Virus record (IMG/VR): IMGVR_UViG_3300017917_000809
Span: 1-31,901 of that record
Reading direction: 5' to 3' (one strand)
Origin: a virus
Length of the DNA stretch: 31,901 nt
Under the pieces are notes generated by a model. The model had not been told where the DNA came from, did no database searches, and saw nothing but the letters and a program-made list of their open reading frames with translations. Shown here piece by piece: positions 3,025 to 31,901 of the stretch (position 1 is the stretch's first letter; each line of letters opens with the position of its first letter). Both the position numbers and the translations under genes were made by a program.

Positions 3025-3495
3025 TTATTGGAATTGATGGTCGAATCTTTTTTGTTGCCAATTGTTAGATTCGTTTATATACTCAGTCAATTCTTTAACA
3101 ATTTCATATTTCTTAACTTTTTCATCACTTAATTTGCTATAATAGATGAGTCGTCCATCATCATCCTTACTTTTTCTTAATAAGTGTTTATGTAAATCAA
3201 TAGCAGAATCAATACTCTGCAATTTGTTATCTAATTCTAATATTCTTTTTGCACACAATATTTTATTTCTTTTATCATTTATACACCAAGCAACTGCATT
3301 TTTAATAGAATAAAATGATAATTGTGTAAAGCTATATTTTAGGGTGACAAGATAAGTTTTATCGTATTGTTTTACTATAGTATAGTTACCATACAAATCA
3401 TATATTCCGTCTTGTGTGCGAAAAATAACTACATCCTGTAGTTCTTCAGAAAACAGTTTGTCTAGTTTGTTTATAATTACATCTGATTTAATCAT
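3025..3495 (-). CDS. Hypothetical phage protein
   Basis: 156 aa, not recognised. The N-terminal half alternates short beta-like segments (DGIYDLYGNYTIVK, TYLVTLKYSF). The C-terminal half is helical and charged (ILELDNKLQSIDSAIDLHK, VKKYEIVKELTEYI). There is no signal peptide, membrane segment or metal motif. The ATG at 3495 overlaps the last bases of the upstream gene, and the purine run AGTAGGA just before it may serve as a closely spaced ribosome binding site. The pair is probably translated together. Confidence 0.6.
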   Translation of the reverse strand: MIKSDVIINKLDKLFSEELQDVVIFRTQDGIYDLYGNYTIVKQYDKTYLVTLKYSFTQLSFYSIKNAVAWCINDKRNKILCAKRILELDNKLQSIDSAIDLHKHLLRKSKDDDGRLIYYSKLSDEKVKKYEIVKELTEYINESNNWQQKRFDHQFQ

Positions 3496-3937
3496 TTCCT
3501 ACTATCTTAAAATGAATGTTTTTTAGTTCTGGGGATACGTTCAAAAATTCAGGAAGTTTATCATATTCAGTTCCACACTTAATCATGGGAACGTTATGGC
3601 AATCATCATATAGACTTCCCAACTCACTTATACCATCGTTGAACACTGTAGTACTCATTACATTAAATGTGAAGTACCAACAGTTTTGGGGCGTTTCTTC
3701 TTCAAATAAAAAACCAAAATCTGTAAATTCACTAAACTTTATTTCTATTTTTTTAGGCTTTTGTTGAATTTCAGGTAATGAGCGTAAAGATACTGCTTGT
3801 AATATTGTATCAAAATTACATTGTGTATTTCTTTTGTATGACCAATCATTATAATCCATGTCAACGACAGGTTTACTTCTATTAAGCACTCCTGTATTAG
3901 TAATATCAAACAATGTATAGCAAGCAATAGTTTGCAT
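3488..3937 (-). CDS. Conserved T4-like phage protein of unknown function
   Basis: 149 aa from the ATG at 3937 (MQTIACYTLFDITNTGVLNR). The frame is open further upstream to 3997, but those 20 codons read through the terminator at 3957-3986 and encode no sensible sequence, so the internal start is chosen. The N-terminal CYTLFDIT.T.V..R..P pattern and the later LYDDCHNVPMIKCGTEYDKL are, from memory, conserved in hypothetical proteins of many aquatic T4-like phages. The function is unknown. It overlaps the next gene (3025-3495) by 8 bases. No clear Shine-Dalgarno sequence. Confidence 0.65.
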   Translation of the reverse strand: MQTIACYTLFDITNTGVLNRSKPVVDMDYNDWSYKRNTQCNFDTILQAVSLRSLPEIQQKPKKIEIKFSEFTDFGFLFEEETPQNCWYFTFNVMSTTVFNDGISELGSLYDDCHNVPMIKCGTEYDKLPEFLNVSPELKNIHFKIVGND

Positions 3938-3956
3938 ATTAGTATTTAATATCCAT

Positions 3957-3986
3957 AAAAAAACCCGAGAATTTCTCGGGCTTTTT
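3957..3986 (-). terminator. Rho-independent terminator after the 135-aa gene
   Basis: CCCGAGA/TCTCGGG stem (3964-3980) with a three-base loop, followed on the minus strand by seven T. It sits 14 bases after the stop of the 4001-4408 gene. On the plus strand the stem is followed by C and five T, so it could act in both directions. A strong terminator after a single small gene suggests a heavily transcribed unit. Confidence 0.85.
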
Positions 3987-4000
3987 ATAAAAATCACAAA

Positions 4001-4408
4001 TTAGTTTGTGAATGTTGCTGTTGCAGCAATAGTAACCGCTTGTGGTGCACCAATCGCTGTCATTGCATCTGTAATAGCCTGGTCTAGAGTACCAGCACCT
4101 GTTGCTGTAACTGTACCCCATGCACCAACTGGATACATAGCAATTGCTAATGTAGAACTAGCTGCACTTGTATATTCGTAAATATAAACTGTGGCTAATT
4201 GCTGAATAGTTTGAATTGTTGCATTCATCTGAGCGCCTGTGATAGAAGCAGCACTAGTATATGTAACTGTGAAGTATTCTAACTTTGGACCTTGTGGTTG
4301 AACAGTAGCAGCAGAAGTAACTGCGTTAACTGCACCGACTGTGTATGCATCGGTATCTAAGTGAAATACTGGCTGATAGTCGCCATGTGTTCTTGTAAAT
4401 TGTGCCAT
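4001..4408 (-). CDS. Small Ala/Thr-rich probable virion protein
   Basis: 135 aa starting MAQFTRTHGDYQPVFHLDTD. The remainder is rich in Ala, Thr, Val and Gly with very few charges and no Cys, a composition typical of beta-rich capsid decoration or tail proteins. The gene is a self-contained unit. It has a late-type CATAAATA (4451-4458), a leader with AAGGAA nine bases before the ATG, and a strong terminator 14 bases after the stop. That layout implies high late expression. Head decoration protein is one possibility; I do not recognise the family. Confidence 0.65.
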   Translation of the reverse strand: MAQFTRTHGDYQPVFHLDTDAYTVGAVNAVTSAATVQPQGPKLEYFTVTYTSAASITGAQMNATIQTIQQLATVYIYEYTSAASSTLAIAMYPVGAWGTVTATGAGTLDQAITDAMTAIGAPQAVTIAATATFTN

Positions 4409-4485: not shown

Positions 4486-5616
4486 TTAGGTTCTACCTGC
4501 CAAATTTTGACGGCTGAAGCCCATTCTATCTACAAATTTAAGACCTTGACTGACGAATCCTTCTTGTGTACGTGTTCCGTCTTGCAGATACCCTTGCACT
4601 GGACTATTGTCCGCAGCTTTATTCAATTGGTCTACAATACTCATTTTAAGATTGTACAACGAAATCCATATAGCAAAAGCACCTAGTAATCCCTCTTTAT
4701 TATTCTCTAAATGTTGTGTTAGTTTTGCTCTCATCGAATCTGTCATTGGACGACTATTAAAATAATCCATAAAGCCTTTTAATAAATTAGAAAGGTTGCC
4801 ACTTACAATTTTTTTATTGATATATGTTGTAAATAACTGCTGGAACGCACTGCTAGATTGCGGGCTATCTTTCATGAGACTATCTACACTTGGACCATAC
4901 TTTGTTATATTATTTTTTACAGCTTGAACTAATTTACTATCTATTTTAAGTTTTGGCGCAATAGGCATTTTTGCAGGAACTATTGCTACATTGCTATTAT
5001 TTTTTAGTTTTCCAATCGTCCCATTTAATGGAGTAGCTTCATCGGTCGTCATCGCATTAGCCGGGATAAACTGATGTACTACGATTCCAGCAACTTTATT
5101 AGCTAAAAATTTTCCCATTTCACTATTAGCAGTAACAGTGTATGTTATACCATTTGGATTAGCTCTAAAAGTATATACACCATTTTTTTCTTGTAGAGGA
5201 TTACTAAACAACAAATCCCCCCAATAATATCCTTTAGAATTATCAGATTTTTCTAATCCCTGCCAAATATTCTGTATTATTGTATGTAATTCTGTACGGT
5301 CTACCCCTCGATTTTTATCGTATTGCATGAACTGCTCAGGACTATAGACGGCGCGGCCTGTTCCATCTTTTTTATTGAACATATGTTTGTCCATAATAGC
5401 AAACTTTCCGTCTGGTCCTCGTCCAAATATCAAAGCAGGATATCCATCCCATTTAATTGTTACTAAATTTGGATTTTTTACAGTAGCCAAAGTAGCTGCT
5501 AATGCATTGTTTGCTCCATTTGAACCATCTAAAAACACTAGGTCTTCTGGATGATCCAAATGGCCTTTAGCCTCTACAATTGCTATTTTAGATAATTTGT
5601 CTAAATAATCTCTCAT
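4486..5616 (-). CDS. KxDG-motif protein, possible nucleotidyltransferase or ligase fold
   Basis: 376 aa from the ATG at 5616 (MRDYLDKLSKIAIVEAK), four bases after the preceding stop. A longer start at 5664 would overlap the upstream gene by 44 bases and has no better ribosome binding site. VTIKWDGYPALIFGR contains K55-W-D-G58, the motif-I signature of covalent nucleotidyltransferases (DNA/RNA ligases, capping enzymes). GYYWGDLLF (129-137) resembles motif III (hydrophobic-DGE-hydrophobic) with D for E, and VAGIVVHQF could be motif IV-like. Similar proteins with HPEDLVFLDG and KWDG are, from memory, widespread hypothetical proteins in T4-like aquatic phages. IVEA (13-16) matches a gp21-type cleavage site. 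Enzyme activity is inferred, and a virion role is equally possible given the neighbours. Confidence 0.7.
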   Translation of the reverse strand: MRDYLDKLSKIAIVEAKGHLDHPEDLVFLDGSNGANNALAATLATVKNPNLVTIKWDGYPALIFGRGPDGKFAIMDKHMFNKKDGTGRAVYSPEQFMQYDKNRGVDRTELHTIIQNIWQGLEKSDNSKGYYWGDLLFSNPLQEKNGVYTFRANPNGITYTVTANSEMGKFLANKVAGIVVHQFIPANAMTTDEATPLNGTIGKLKNNSNVAIVPAKMPIAPKLKIDSKLVQAVKNNITKYGPSVDSLMKDSPQSSSAFQQLFTTYINKKIVSGNLSNLLKGFMDYFNSRPMTDSMRAKLTQHLENNKEGLLGAFAIWISLYNLKMSIVDQLNKAADNSPVQGYLQDGTRTQEGFVSQGLKFVDRMGFSRQNLAGRT

Positions 5617-5620
5617 TTTA

Positions 5621-7147
5621 TTAGACTTTAGTTGTGGATTGACTTTTCTTTGCTGCTCTTGCATTTCGTTTACGAATAGCGTCAGGTGTCTGACTTAATT
5701 CTTGTCCCTTTTGTCTACCTCCTGTACGAGGCTTTTTAGCAGGGGCTGGTGCTGATGGTGCTGCTGGTGGGGCAGGAGATGCTGGTGCCGGAGCAGGTGT
5801 GCTAGCCACTGCCCCTAATTTTGTCATTAATTTTTGTTTTTGTGTTTTGTTAAGTAGCGGGATCAGTTTTTCAACTTCAGCCATTGCCTCAGTGCTTTTT
5901 TTACTTGAACTACTTGTTGCACTTCCAGTTTGTGAGCCGGTTTGACCAAACATTCTACTTTGAGAACTTGTGGCTCCTGTTGATGGCTGTGATCCTGGAC
6001 TTCCGTAACCTTTATATTCTTTTTCTGTGCCTTCTATAGAGTACAATAAACCGCCTAATTTACTTAATGGTGCTTTAATTGCTCTATCACCACCAAATCC
6101 CCCCTTTCCATATGCTGCTTCAGCATCCTTAGCAAGTTTTTCGATTTGCGGCATATATTTTGAAACATCTAGACCCTGTAAATATTGTGTAACCTTATTC
6201 ATAATAAAGCCACTTACAGTTAAACCCTGTCCTCCGGCAGCCTGAGGTTGTTGAGGTTGTGATGTAGCTCCTTGATTAGCTGTCTGACTCTGTTGCATAG
6301 ATGCTTGTGCAGGTGCTTGTTGTGCTGCTCTAGCTGTTCCTGCAGTATGCACTCTACCTGTAGGAGTTTGAGTTGTTGTACCACCAGCAGAAGAAGCTGA
6401 TTTATTTGCACCTGATAATTGACCCGCCATTTGTCCGAACGCATTTGAACCCGCTTTTGCTTCTAAAATACTTTCAAAAATTGCATTTAATCTATCGTAA
6501 TGGTCTTCACGCTGAATTTTCTTAAATGTTGGTGCTCCGGATTGGTCTACACCAGTCATTCTTTTACCGCTACCTCCTACATAATTTTTAAATCCACTTG
6601 GAGCACTTGTCGCTGCCGCACCGCCCTTAAGTCTGCCCTTTAGTTCCGCTGCCTTTTTCGGGTCTAATTTTTGTTGCTGAGATTGTGCAGCCTGTGGTTG
6701 TGGTGTTGCAGGTGCAGTTTGTGCAGATTGAGGTTGTTGGGGCTGCTGTTGGCTCTGGCCTGCAGCAGTTGTTTGTTGATATCCTTGTTTTGCTGCACTC
6801 GCTATATTTTTAATGCCGCCTGCAACTTGACCTGCCATTTTACTTAAACCTGTTGCTGCTTTACTTAATAATCCTTGTTTAGGTTGTGCAGCAGCACCTG
6901 ACAATTGAATGGCACCTGATTGTACTTCTCTGTTAATTTCTCCTGCTGTTTTGCCTACGAAATCTTTAACATACTTGTCGTATGCCATTCTTGTAGCAAC
7001 ATCCATTTCTCCACTGGCTCTGCCTGCTAGTGATGATAGTCCACTTCTAACCCCTGCTGCCCCATAATCACCTATAAATGAACTTAAATCTAATTCATTT
7101 ATTTGTTTTTGACTTGTATTAGGTTTTTTAAATTCATTCAGTTTCAC
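5621..7147 (-). CDS. Low-complexity Gln/Ala/Pro-rich protein, probable virion component
   Basis: 508 aa, beginning with GTG at 7147, preceded by GAGGA about seven bases upstream, and overlapping the upstream gene by 14 bases. The order is: N-terminal MKLNEF with INEL; a helical section (22-120); a Q/P/A-rich linker (about 125-165); a central block with HYDRLNAIFESILEAKAG (216-233); a second S/Q/T-rich linker; a conserved-looking block around LTVSGFIMNKVTQYLQGLDV; and a basic tail (KPRTGGRQKGQ, then RKRNARAAKK) suited to binding nucleic acid. ILEA (227-230) and INE (16-18) fit the prohead protease preference. It is not recognised as a named family. An internal or head-core protein is an inference. 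Confidence 0.6.
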   Translation of the reverse strand: MKLNEFKKPNTSQKQINELDLSSFIGDYGAAGVRSGLSSLAGRASGEMDVATRMAYDKYVKDFVGKTAGEINREVQSGAIQLSGAAAQPKQGLLSKAATGLSKMAGQVAGGIKNIASAAKQGYQQTTAAGQSQQQPQQPQSAQTAPATPQPQAAQSQQQKLDPKKAAELKGRLKGGAAATSAPSGFKNYVGGSGKRMTGVDQSGAPTFKKIQREDHYDRLNAIFESILEAKAGSNAFGQMAGQLSGANKSASSAGGTTTQTPTGRVHTAGTARAAQQAPAQASMQQSQTANQGATSQPQQPQAAGGQGLTVSGFIMNKVTQYLQGLDVSKYMPQIEKLAKDAEAAYGKGGFGGDRAIKAPLSKLGGLLYSIEGTEKEYKGYGSPGSQPSTGATSSQSRMFGQTGSQTGSATSSSSKKSTEAMAEVEKLIPLLNKTQKQKLMTKLGAVASTPAPAPASPAPPAAPSAPAPAKKPRTGGRQKGQELSQTPDAIRKRNARAAKKSQSTTKV

Positions 7148-7382
7148 GGTTTTTCCTCAAAGATTTAGAAAATTTATTCTGATCGCGGGCTTTTATCGCA
7201 CTCAGTAAACGCTTTTCTAAAATTAAGGCTTTTTCCGGAGAATAATGACGATTAATCATTTCTAACAAATTAATCGCGCTGGTAATAATATTATGTCCGC
7301 GACTTTCAATAATATGATTAGTATCGCGGTTATTACCTATTGCCTCTAATTCTTCTAATAATGAGCGAGTTTTTCGTTGCAT
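7134..7382 (-). CDS. Small conserved T4-like phage protein
   Basis: 82 aa, mainly helical, charged at both ends. The opening MQRKTRSLLEELEAI and the middle SRGHNIITSAINLLEMI are, from memory, conserved in a small unnamed family of T4-like phages. Its function is unknown. A late-type CATAAATA (7400-7407) lies 17 bases before its ATG, and its 3' end overlaps the GTG start of the 508-aa gene by 14 bases, so the two are probably coupled. Confidence 0.65.
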   Translation of the reverse strand: MQRKTRSLLEELEAIGNNRDTNHIIESRGHNIITSAINLLEMINRHYSPEKALILEKRLLSAIKARDQNKFSKSLRKNRETE

Positions 7383-21173: not shown

Positions 21174-22237
21174 TCTGTAACCTCCTCCAGGGTTGTTACA
21201 TTACTTATTTCTTTTTGTGATTTCTTAGAATACTCAGTCATAACCTTGTCAAGGCATCCGTCTTCGTTTGATTCCCAACCTTTACGGAAGAATTTAAGAA
21301 TCTCACCATCTTCAGTTGTGTAACTCAAACGATTGCCTTCTTTAATCAACATGCCACTTCCTTCAAATAAGTCAAGTAAGCCAGAGTGTGGATTCATTCC
21401 GGTAGTATATGGTATTTTAATTTGAACAGATTCAAAAGGCTTAGCATATCGTGTTTTCATTACTTTACATGCTGAACGAATGCCTCGTACTTCGCTTACC
21501 TTGTTACCATCTTCATCTTCTTTGAGTTTAAGTTTACGCATAGCAACAACAATACTTGAAGCATAGATAAAGCCTTGACCACCTGAAATTTTATCATCAG
21601 GATCAAACATGTCCTGACTTGCATATGTATGGTTAGTAGCGACTAAGCCTACATTGTGACTACCAAACATGTTAACACAGTTACGAACTAGTGCTGTCAG
21701 TGCTTTAGGTTTACGACCCATATCACCTTTCAAGTCACCGCCCTCAAACTGATTAACATCAGTGGGTGTCAACAACATACCAAGACTGTCAATGATAAAC
21801 AAGACTTTAGGTTTATCTTCTGCTGGTAATGCTTTGTATGATTTCATAAATTCTGAAATCGTTTTGGCAACATCATCAATCATTGCCATGTTGAGTTTAA
21901 GAAGTTTATCTTCTGCGGTATCAACACCAAGTGCTTTTAGCCAATCTTCATCCAACGCATTTTCTGAATCAACGAGGACCACAAAGATACCTTGTTGTTG
22001 TGCGTGTCTAACGAGGTTACCTGAACAGATGTATGATTTACCTGATCCACTCTCTCCGGCAAAGACAGTAACTTTACCAAGAGGCACCCCTTTATGAAAT
22101 GAGCCACTTATCAAGAAGTTTAATGCGTAATTCCCGGTGCTTACCCAATCAGTAGGATCATTAAATCCTATACTAAGGCCATCAATAGATTTTGTTAGAT
22201 CCTTCCGGAACTTTGATATATCAAACGGTTTGTTCAT
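21170..22237 (-). CDS. uvsX: UvsX-type RecA-like recombinase
   Basis: 355 aa. It has a RecA core with Walker A GESGSGKS (61-68), the ENALDEDW segment carrying the catalytic Glu region, Walker B VLFIIDSLGMLL, and the L2-like loop near HTYASQDMFDPDDKISGGQG. Overall length and the early GNYALNFLISGSFHKGVPLG are those of phage UvsX. It forms filaments on single-stranded DNA for strand exchange and recombination-dependent replication with UvsY, gp32 and UvsW, all of which have candidates here. The ATG is in an ATGA overlap with the homing endonuclease, and its AGGA ribosome binding site lies inside that gene's end. Confidence 0.95.
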   Translation of the reverse strand: MNKPFDISKFRKDLTKSIDGLSIGFNDPTDWVSTGNYALNFLISGSFHKGVPLGKVTVFAGESGSGKSYICSGNLVRHAQQQGIFVVLVDSENALDEDWLKALGVDTAEDKLLKLNMAMIDDVAKTISEFMKSYKALPAEDKPKVLFIIDSLGMLLTPTDVNQFEGGDLKGDMGRKPKALTALVRNCVNMFGSHNVGLVATNHTYASQDMFDPDDKISGGQGFIYASSIVVAMRKLKLKEDEDGNKVSEVRGIRSACKVMKTRYAKPFESVQIKIPYTTGMNPHSGLLDLFEGSGMLIKEGNRLSYTTEDGEILKFFRKGWESNEDGCLDKVMTEYSKKSQKEISNVTTLEEVTE

Positions 22238-22902
22238 TTATTATTTCCTTTTAATTTACAATTATTGTTGTGCCATCTTTTCAAATTACCGCCAGTAGTA
22301 GATATGCCACAATGTTTACATGAATATGTTTTAAGTTTTTTACCTTTATTAAGTGCTACACGACCTTTTAATGCCTTAGAAACTAAGGGGTTCTCCTTGC
22401 CTTTTTTAGCCTTTGAAATATTTTCGCTATGCTCTTTTGTTCGTATTTTGCCAGTAAGCGCGTTTGAGATATTAGCACTGTGCTTTTCTGTATGTTTTCG
22501 CCCGGACATTATTTTAGAATGCTCCGGTCGCTTTTTTCCTTTTAGTGCTTTACTAACATGCGGTTGCGGTATTCCTTTCAATGGACTGGGAATACCTTTA
22601 TTTTGACCCCCCAATAAACCATTTTCTGGAACTTCATTCGCCCATACTTTTTTACCATTAATCGTATGTGTAACAATTTCAAAAAAATCACTAAAAAACT
22701 CAGCAAATTCAACTAGGGTATTCTCATCCTCAAATAATTCACACCACACTGTAGAAATATCATTTCCATGAATTTTTCTATGCGATGACCAATATGATCC
22801 AGATCCCTTATATTTCAAGGGATCACTCACAGTTTTACCAAAATACATTAACCCAGTTTGATTATGTTTTTTAATATATAACCATGTGCCACCTGAGGAC
22901 AT
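22234..22902 (-). CDS. Free-standing homing endonuclease, GIY-YIG-like with NUMOD3 repeats
   Basis: 222 aa. The N-terminal module (TWLYIKKHNQTGLMYFGKT, then KYKGSGSYWSSHRK, residues 6-43) is the divergent GIY-YIG type found in phage homing enzymes. Residues about 117-180 hold NUMOD3-like repeats (KALKGKKRPEHSKIMSGRKH, then TEKHSANISNALTGK, TKEHSENISKAKKGK) that wrap DNA. The end has a C2HC-like finger (C195, C198, H211, C215). It probably cuts an allele lacking the insertion near uvsX. GGAG lies before the ATG, just after the stop of the preceding gene. Confidence 0.85.
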   Translation of the reverse strand: MSSGGTWLYIKKHNQTGLMYFGKTVSDPLKYKGSGSYWSSHRKIHGNDISTVWCELFEDENTLVEFAEFFSDFFEIVTHTINGKKVWANEVPENGLLGGQNKGIPSPLKGIPQPHVSKALKGKKRPEHSKIMSGRKHTEKHSANISNALTGKIRTKEHSENISKAKKGKENPLVSKALKGRVALNKGKKLKTYSCKHCGISTTGGNLKRWHNNNCKLKGNNK

Positions 22903-30959: not shown

Positions 30960-31901
30960 TTATGCGATTTGATTGACTGTAAAGATTACGCCAGGTGCTT
31001 GTGGGATGCCTGTCAATACAAAACTTGGTGGGTAACTTGTTATAACGCTAGTGCCACCAACAGTGGTCCATTTCATTCCCATAGTATCGCCTGCAAGCAT
31101 TGGGTAAAAGATATTGACTGTGACAATACCAGAACCAGGAATGCCACCATGAATAGCAGGGATAGTCACATAACTGGCTGATGCTGGTACGGCAGTGCCA
31201 TTATACACAAACCATATAGCAATATCGTCTGGAGCGTTTCCTGAACATGAAACTTGAATACTGTATTGGAAGTTGTAAGTTCCAGCATTTGCTATAGTTA
31301 CCACACCGTTAGCACTGTTTAGAGTCATGCCAACTGCCAAATCTGTGATATCCATTTTTACAGGGGCTGATACACCTGCGGCTGTCACCTGTGCTGCACC
31401 AACTGGTGTGCCTGCGGCATGGTTGGCACCGTTACTGCCTGCTACACCGCGTGTGATACCTGTAAACGATGTTGGTGTTACACCAGTATAGGCTATGACT
31501 TCATTATTGATAATCAAATATCCTGAAGTATAATACCCACTAGTACTGGCTACTACTATTGGTGCTGTTGAGTTACTATTTATAGCATTTGTAAGTGTAG
31601 TGACCTGGTCGCTGTGGAACGCGCCATAATAAGCCAATGCGTTTAGTCCTTGCGGACCTGTGGCCCCAGTTGCTCCCGCGCCAGTGGCACCAGTAGATCC
31701 AACTGCGCCTGTAGCACCTACACCGCCTATTGATCCCGTAGCGCCTGTAGTGCCAGTTAGTCCTGTTGCGCCTACGGCACCCGTTGCTCCAGTGGCACCA
31801 ATCAAGCCTGTAGCACCAGTTGGTCCAACTAAACCTGTAGCACCCTGTGGTCCTGTTGAACCAGTAGCACCATCTGCTCCTACTGCTCCGGTTGCCCCTG
31901 T
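30960..31901 (-). CDS. Collagen-like fibre/adhesin, 5' end outside the window
   Basis: The visible 313 aa are open to the right edge, so the start is not in the window; a TTG at 31805 is inside the collagen repeat and is not a start. The first part is a long Gly-x-y repeat dominated by GAT and GPT/GLT triplets, as in phage collagen-like fibres. A linker ([14 protein letters not shown]) leads to a segment with [20 protein letters not shown], a motif of phage fibre repeats. The end, about 130 residues ([46 protein letters not shown]), has the beta pattern of C1q/TNF-like trimer heads. Host binding is the probable role. Confidence 0.85.

Follow-up and report, generated by a model that had tools for sequence, protein, structure and literature searches.

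The balance of evidence tips slightly toward DUF6267, a phage protein family annotated without function, being a divergent covalent nucleotidyltransferase, probably a ligase, and the member that we examined begins with a probable capsid-targeting leader. Its gene lies on the minus strand at positions 4486-5616 of a 31,901-nucleotide stretch of viral DNA (hereafter, the window) and encodes 376 amino acids in the open reading frame list. An alternative in-frame ATG at 5664 would give 392 amino acids; this start is unlikely because the frame runs into the upstream gene and because the leaders of homologs are usually 10 to 30 residues long. The protein matches Pfam DUF6267 (PF19782; E = 1.2e-40, 140.5 bits versus a curated cut-off of 27) and is assigned to phrog_455, neither of which carries a functional annotation. 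NCBIfam has no model for it, and a literature search found no mention of the name DUF6267. With a cyanophage member as the query, at least 468 phage-collection records were found to encode the protein, which bears out a reading made from the sequence alone (the sequence-only reading) that this is a widespread unnamed phage protein. The carriers are nearly all marine T4-like cyanophages, along with pelagiphages, Methylophilales phages, and a few others, and the S-PM2 and S-SM1 proteins are labeled "T4-LIKE GC: 71." Identity between the window clade and the marine members of PF19782, phrog_455, and T4-GC 71 is low, at about 25-30%, and the leader of the window clade is longer.

Two further aspects of the distribution deserve mention. 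Thirty-seven DUF6267 loci (L245-L281) are in contigs filed as bacterial or archaeal genomes (Euryarchaeota, Planctomycetota, and others); several of these genomes also hold a gp21-type protease, so the contigs are probably phage contigs binned with their hosts. In S-PM2 (NC_006820, L082:5983-7762), DUF6267 is split: p141 is the N-terminal half, and p142 is the C-terminal half joined to a HIGH-type nucleotidyltransferase. The 591-amino-acid S-PM2 model in BFVD is compatible with one single fusion protein.

We aligned 169 nonredundant full-length homologs, drawn from about 350 loci. The window protein, IKWDGYPALIFGR, contains K55-W-D-G58 (KWDG, residues 55-58; 5443-5454, minus strand, as are all features of this gene given below). 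K55, W56, D57, G58, P60, K77, D134, Y159, and H181 are conserved in 100% of the 169 homologs, as are H22, N267, K324, E352, G353, and K360, and V355 and R364 are conserved in 99% each. Proteins of one subfamily (S-SM1, Syn9, S-CAM7, and S-CREM2) are about 300 residues long and are missing most of a helical insertion, residues 227-335 (4612-4938); they retain the invariant motif residues except W56 and P60. Their version of the first motif reads KWDG, KYDG, KMDG, or KIDG. KxDG as such is therefore what is conserved, since its second position differs among these divergent members. The sequence-only reading had identified this KxDG as motif I of the covalent nucleotidyltransferases, and conservation of K55 had been set beforehand as a check; K, D, and G are all invariant in the 169 homologs and in the divergent members. 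Of 505 nonredundant background (unrelated) ORFs, one contains the ordered pattern K.DG...EG[hydrophobic]2...K, which also arises in 0.18% of shuffled versions of the window protein. The weight of this sequence pattern comes from its invariance among proteins that are merely 25-30% identical.

If KxDG is motif I, the remaining conserved residues can be assigned, in the expected order, to the other motifs of a covalent nucleotidyltransferase. Downstream of the conserved HLDHPED (residues 19-25; 5542-5562) and of motif I, two short strands in the AlphaFold2 model lead to K77 (5386-5388), an invariant basic residue in a position like that of motif Ia. The candidate motif III is YWGDLLF (residues 131-137; 5206-5226), in a predicted strand and with D134 invariant. 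PNGITY (residues 154-159; 5140-5157), with Y159, is a candidate for IIIa, of which GIVVH (residues 177-181; 5074-5088), with H181, is likelier to be a part as well. E352-G-F-V355 (4552-4563) would be motif IV and K360-F-V-D-R364 (4525-4539) motif V, each in a short C-terminal strand of the model; the motif V lysine sits 8-12 residues past the motif IV glutamate.

This assignment departs in places from the sequence-only reading. That reading had likened GYYWGDLLF (residues 129-137, beginning 74 residues past K55) to motif III. The acidic residue of motif III is Glu in known covalent nucleotidyltransferases; the strand does contain an invariant acidic residue, D134, but it is Asp, and Glu is absent. 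The suggestion that VAGIVVHQF (residues 175-183) could be motif IV was probably a misassignment: the segment is conserved, but the invariant E352-G-F-V355 together with K360/R364 fits motifs IV and V better, and the histidine of VVHQ may instead belong to motif IIIa, by analogy with His195 of RLIG1. As for the proposed "ligase or capping-like" enzyme, the motif residues are present in order, but nothing that we found favors a capping enzyme over a ligase.

How do these motifs compare with those of known ligases? In common with DUF6267, the T4 Rnl1/Trl1 ligase domain (PF09511) has a KxDG, a hairpin followed by a basic residue, an acidic residue in motif III, and EG[FY]V with the motif V lysine about 12 residues on. 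In T4 Rnl1, KEDG is followed by a DGDEILFKSKG stretch comparable to the K77 region, and the cyanophage form of DUF6267, EGFVAIKDGTAVKLVDRLEF, looks by eye like Rnl1 in motifs IV and V. However, the motif V consensus of DUF6267, K360-[LFI]-V-[DN]-R364, is without the second lysine of K-x-K (KIK in T4 Rnl1), the helical domain precedes motif IV instead of following motif V as in Rnl1 and Trl1, and there is neither a PF09511 match nor statistical homology. Another precedent is RLIG1 (C12orf29), a KxDG protein that had no known function until it was shown to be an RNA ligase; it has His195 in motif IIIa, a Glu in motif IV, and a single Lys in motif V (PMC11494293). These are the same kinds of residues as in DUF6267, although no sequence similarity between the two was detected and DUF6267 has Asp in motif III where Glu is expected.

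Structure prediction, which had been proposed as a check, gave a mixed answer: a confident model with ligases among its weak matches, but no significant PDB match to a nucleotidyltransferase fold. The AlphaFold2 model of the full window protein (61 sequences) has a pLDDT of 86.7 and a pTM of 0.81, and a Foldseek search with it against the PDB yielded no match at E ≤ 0.001. Below that threshold, the leading matches were CorA helix bundles and the adenylyltransferase/ligase domains of fungal tRNA ligase (Trl1; 9qw7, 8rbj, and 6n67; E = 0.04-0.84, with low TM-scores). Against viral models, true homologs ranked first, several of them 591-601 amino acids long and two named cytidyltransferase-like. 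An RNA ligase domain and three DNA ligases followed at ranks 18-21 (E = 0.1-0.2), and two further ligases at ranks 35 and 37 bring the count to six viral ligases within ranks 18-37. A model of the truncated core (residues 19-226, without the motif IV/V hairpin) has a pLDDT of 92 and gave no significant Foldseek match, with Trl1 at rank 9 (E = 0.93). Together, the ligase matches lend weak support to a nucleotidyltransferase fold.

Profile searches gave no match to ligases. With hhalign, DUF6267 matched none of the T4 Rnl1, Rnl2, and gp30 families, a null result that is uninformative because these three known ligase families failed to find each other in the same comparison. Searches of PDB sequences with phmmer and hmmsearch returned nothing for DUF6267. 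PF09511 did not match six divergent members at up to E = 10, nor the window protein in the Pfam search; a PF09511 search of genomes, which matched nowhere, controls included, is a weak negative.

The lack of a significant fold or profile match, the presence of Asp instead of Glu in motif III, and the single motif V lysine are what one would expect if DUF6267 were an enzyme of another or a new fold, in which KxDG and EGxV mean something else. We consider this unlikely, given the order and invariance of the motif residues and the several ligases among the weak fold matches. The same observations count against a ligase, although the profile test lacked power. On the other side, KxDG, D134, EGxV, and K360 are invariant, stand in the right order for a ligase, and survive loss of the helical insertion; the x of KxDG varies as in known ligases; and the literature leads one to expect an unrecognized ligase in these phages (PMC2984593). 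From these sequence features we infer a covalent nucleotidyltransferase fold, chemistry with ATP, and a nucleic acid substrate.

That expectation stems from a 2010 review, according to which cyanomyoviruses either lack T4 gene 30 (DNA ligase) or have distant homologs that are still to be identified (PMC2984593). In agreement with this statement, we found no PF01068 ligase in HTVC008M, P-TIM40, S-SM1, Syn9, or S-WAM1, and the T4 positive control was matched. PF01653 and PF09414 were likewise not found in HTVC008M, P-TIM40, S-SM1, and Syn9, so that these four complete cyano- and pelagiphage genomes have no detectable conventional ligase. It is tempting to see DUF6267, which itself has no match to PF01068, as filling the gap left by gene 30 in cyanomyoviruses. 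However, DLP_6 and two large contigs (G002 and G005) carry both DUF6267 and a PF01068 ligase. This rules out, as a general explanation, that DUF6267 is solely the missing cyanophage DNA ligase, and its role is therefore not simply that of gp30 everywhere.

The coexistence of the two in some phages tells against a ligase, and it would also suit a covalent nucleotidyltransferase that modifies a protein or small molecule rather than sealing nucleic acid, for instance in NAD+ metabolism or in host takeover like T4 Alt. Its partner would be the HIGH-type (NMNAT-like) nucleotidyltransferase, or cytidyltransferase-like enzyme, that adjoins DUF6267 and in some phages is apparently fused to it. We regard this as rather improbable, since the ligase-type residues are complete except for the second motif V lysine and we know of no KxDG enzyme acting on a protein or small molecule in such a context. 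In cyanophages, DUF6267 comes shortly after gp41 and mazG and adjoins the cytidyltransferase. Not every genome showed this companion: a PF01467 match turned up in 8 of 12 records, and the four without one are window-clade contigs, possibly fragmentary.

The probable capsid-targeting leader was overlooked by the sequence-only reading. Residues 1-15, MRDYLDKLSKIAIVE (5572-5616), form a probable propeptide that ends in an I-x-E site, with the predicted cut (slash) at IVE/AKGHLDH. The T4 prohead protease gp21 cuts after L/I-X-E (PMC9026906), and propeptides of 10-19 residues direct T4 internal proteins into the head. The internal proteins IPII and IPIII start with MKTYQEFIAEA; DUF6267 homologs start with MKSYKQFLIEASGKNLHMEH (L275), MHTFKQFLAENKNTHMEH (L260), and MLSFKNYLAEAKNTHMEH (L257), and the one in pelagiphage HTVC008M with LLVEDKNTHLEH. 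The predicted cut falls at LLVE/DKNT in HTVC008M and at FLAE/SK in the Stenotrophomonas phage DLP_6, both of which encode a leader-bearing DUF6267. Several homologs (MKSYKQFLIE, MHTFKQFLAE, and MLSFKNYLAE) resemble the IPIII start MKTYQEFIAE; the window leader shares with IPII and IPIII only the IxE end. Leaders of 8 or more residues are present in 123 homologs, and 95 of these carry [LI]xE no more than 8 residues from the conserved HLxH (permutation mean, 24; maximum, 35). The strict IPIII-like start M..[FY]..[FY][LI]xE, which the window's own leader does not match, occurs in 16 of the 169 nonredundant homologs. Of the other ORFs on the forward strand of the homologs' loci, 30 of 1091 have it, and of the reverse-strand ORFs, 1 of 448. 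A gp21-type protease (PF03420) is encoded in 12 of 13 related records, the window itself being a 31.9-kb fragment. From the leader and the protease gene in relatives, we infer that DUF6267 is processed and packaged in this lineage, for which we would put the chances at about even.

Packaging does not extend to every DUF6267. Many marine members start with MAKNTHLEH, without a leader, and published virion proteomes offer a comparison between such forms and their leader-bearing neighbors. The T4-GC 190 cytidyltransferase, beside DUF6267, was detected in S-SM1 virions (PMC3037559); cytidylyltransferases were also found in virions of S-SZBM1 (protein 140; PMC9146016) and S-CREM2 (gp154; PMC10665884). 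The N termini of these three proteins, MKKFSAFLNEAE (S-SM1), MRFRQFIIEAVA (S-SZBM1), and MKNFSSFLTEAD (S-CREM2), are all capsid-targeting-like. The leaderless S-SZBM1 DUF6267, protein 141, is encoded by the gene after that for protein 140 and is not in the virion list (PMC9146016); nor are the coordinates of the leaderless S-CREM2 DUF6267 in the list for that phage (PMC10665884), whose authors note that carry-over during purification is possible. These absences count against packaging of DUF6267. Since the leader-bearing cytidyltransferases are in virions and the leaderless DUF6267 proteins are unlisted, they also suggest that the presence of a leader agrees with virion content, in a small set of cases in which the published DUF6267 proteins are all leaderless.

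The sequence-only reading placed the gene in a virion-type cluster, and the neighborhood agrees. The DUF6267 gene lies between genes that match virion structural PHROGs (2261-2977 and 7134-7382), near a replicative helicase and a primase. Among 80 close relatives, 58-75 have detectable counterparts of its neighbors 2261-2977, 3488-3997, 4001-4408, and 7134-7382 in their loci. Such conserved company, together with a leader like those cut by the prohead protease, would also fit a noncatalytic structural or scaffold protein of the virion. We think this very improbable in view of the invariant polar, catalytic-type residues and of the virion lists of S-SZBM1 and S-CREM2, where DUF6267 and its coordinates, respectively, do not appear.

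Several neighbors of DUF6267 in other loci have capsid-targeting-like leaders themselves (L350:1231-1857, L355:7233-8537, L247:2515-4986, L274:4960-6024, and L278:8866-10053). They are P-loop kinases, CTP_transf_like proteins, and a DUF5824 protein; one CTP_transf_like neighbor is fused to an AAA_33/zeta-type kinase domain, and one has a weak Pol-beta NTase match. These neighbors may be a packaged enzyme set. Upstream of DUF6267 in the window, 5621-7147 encodes a 508-amino-acid Gln/Ala-rich protein with a leader ending in QINE/LDL and a stretch, SAAKQGYQQTTAAGQS, that resembles P-TIM40_184, SAAKDGYKSTQKGQSS; S-SZBM1 protein 139 (457 amino acids), encoded in the same place, was found in virions (PMC9146016). 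Elsewhere, the window encodes an Fe-S cluster biosynthesis (HesB/IscA-type) protein in a phage (1613-1933; PF01521, E = 8e-21) and, by eye, a ROK-family sugar kinase-like protein, unusual for a phage (11611-12462; MNKIGIDIGGTKIE), a GIY-YIG homing endonuclease-like protein directly upstream of a RecA/UvsX-like gene (22234-22902), and a collagen-like protein with GATGATG repeats at the window end (30960-31805).

If DUF6267 is a ligase, lysyl-AMP would form when K55 of KxDG attacks the alpha-phosphate of ATP, and the roles of motifs Ia, III, IIIa, IV, and V would fall to K77, D134, Y159/H181, E352-G-x-V, and K360/R364, respectively. K55 would then hand the AMP on to a 5'-phosphate end, which is sealed, and the helical domain that separates IIIa from IV would determine specificity. 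Here, as in many other lineages, the N-terminal propeptide would carry the protein into the prohead, where a T4-type prohead protease would remove it, and the enzyme would enter the cell with the DNA. Taken to its full extent, this would be a new ligase family packed in T4-like capsids by a T4-type targeting peptide and injected with the genome beside packaged kinases and NMNAT-like nucleotidyltransferases, repairing phage DNA or host tRNA that the cell's defenses cleave in the first minutes of infection, and in cyanophages also serving as the missing ligase. We offer this complete scenario as speculation that is probably wrong in at least some part. Nevertheless, DUF6267 is a concrete candidate for the ligase that cyanomyoviruses seemed to lack (PMC2984593). 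If the leader prediction is true, it would add one more enzyme to the few proteins delivered inside the capsid, and it would provide a simple sequence rule for finding other capsid-delivered proteins.
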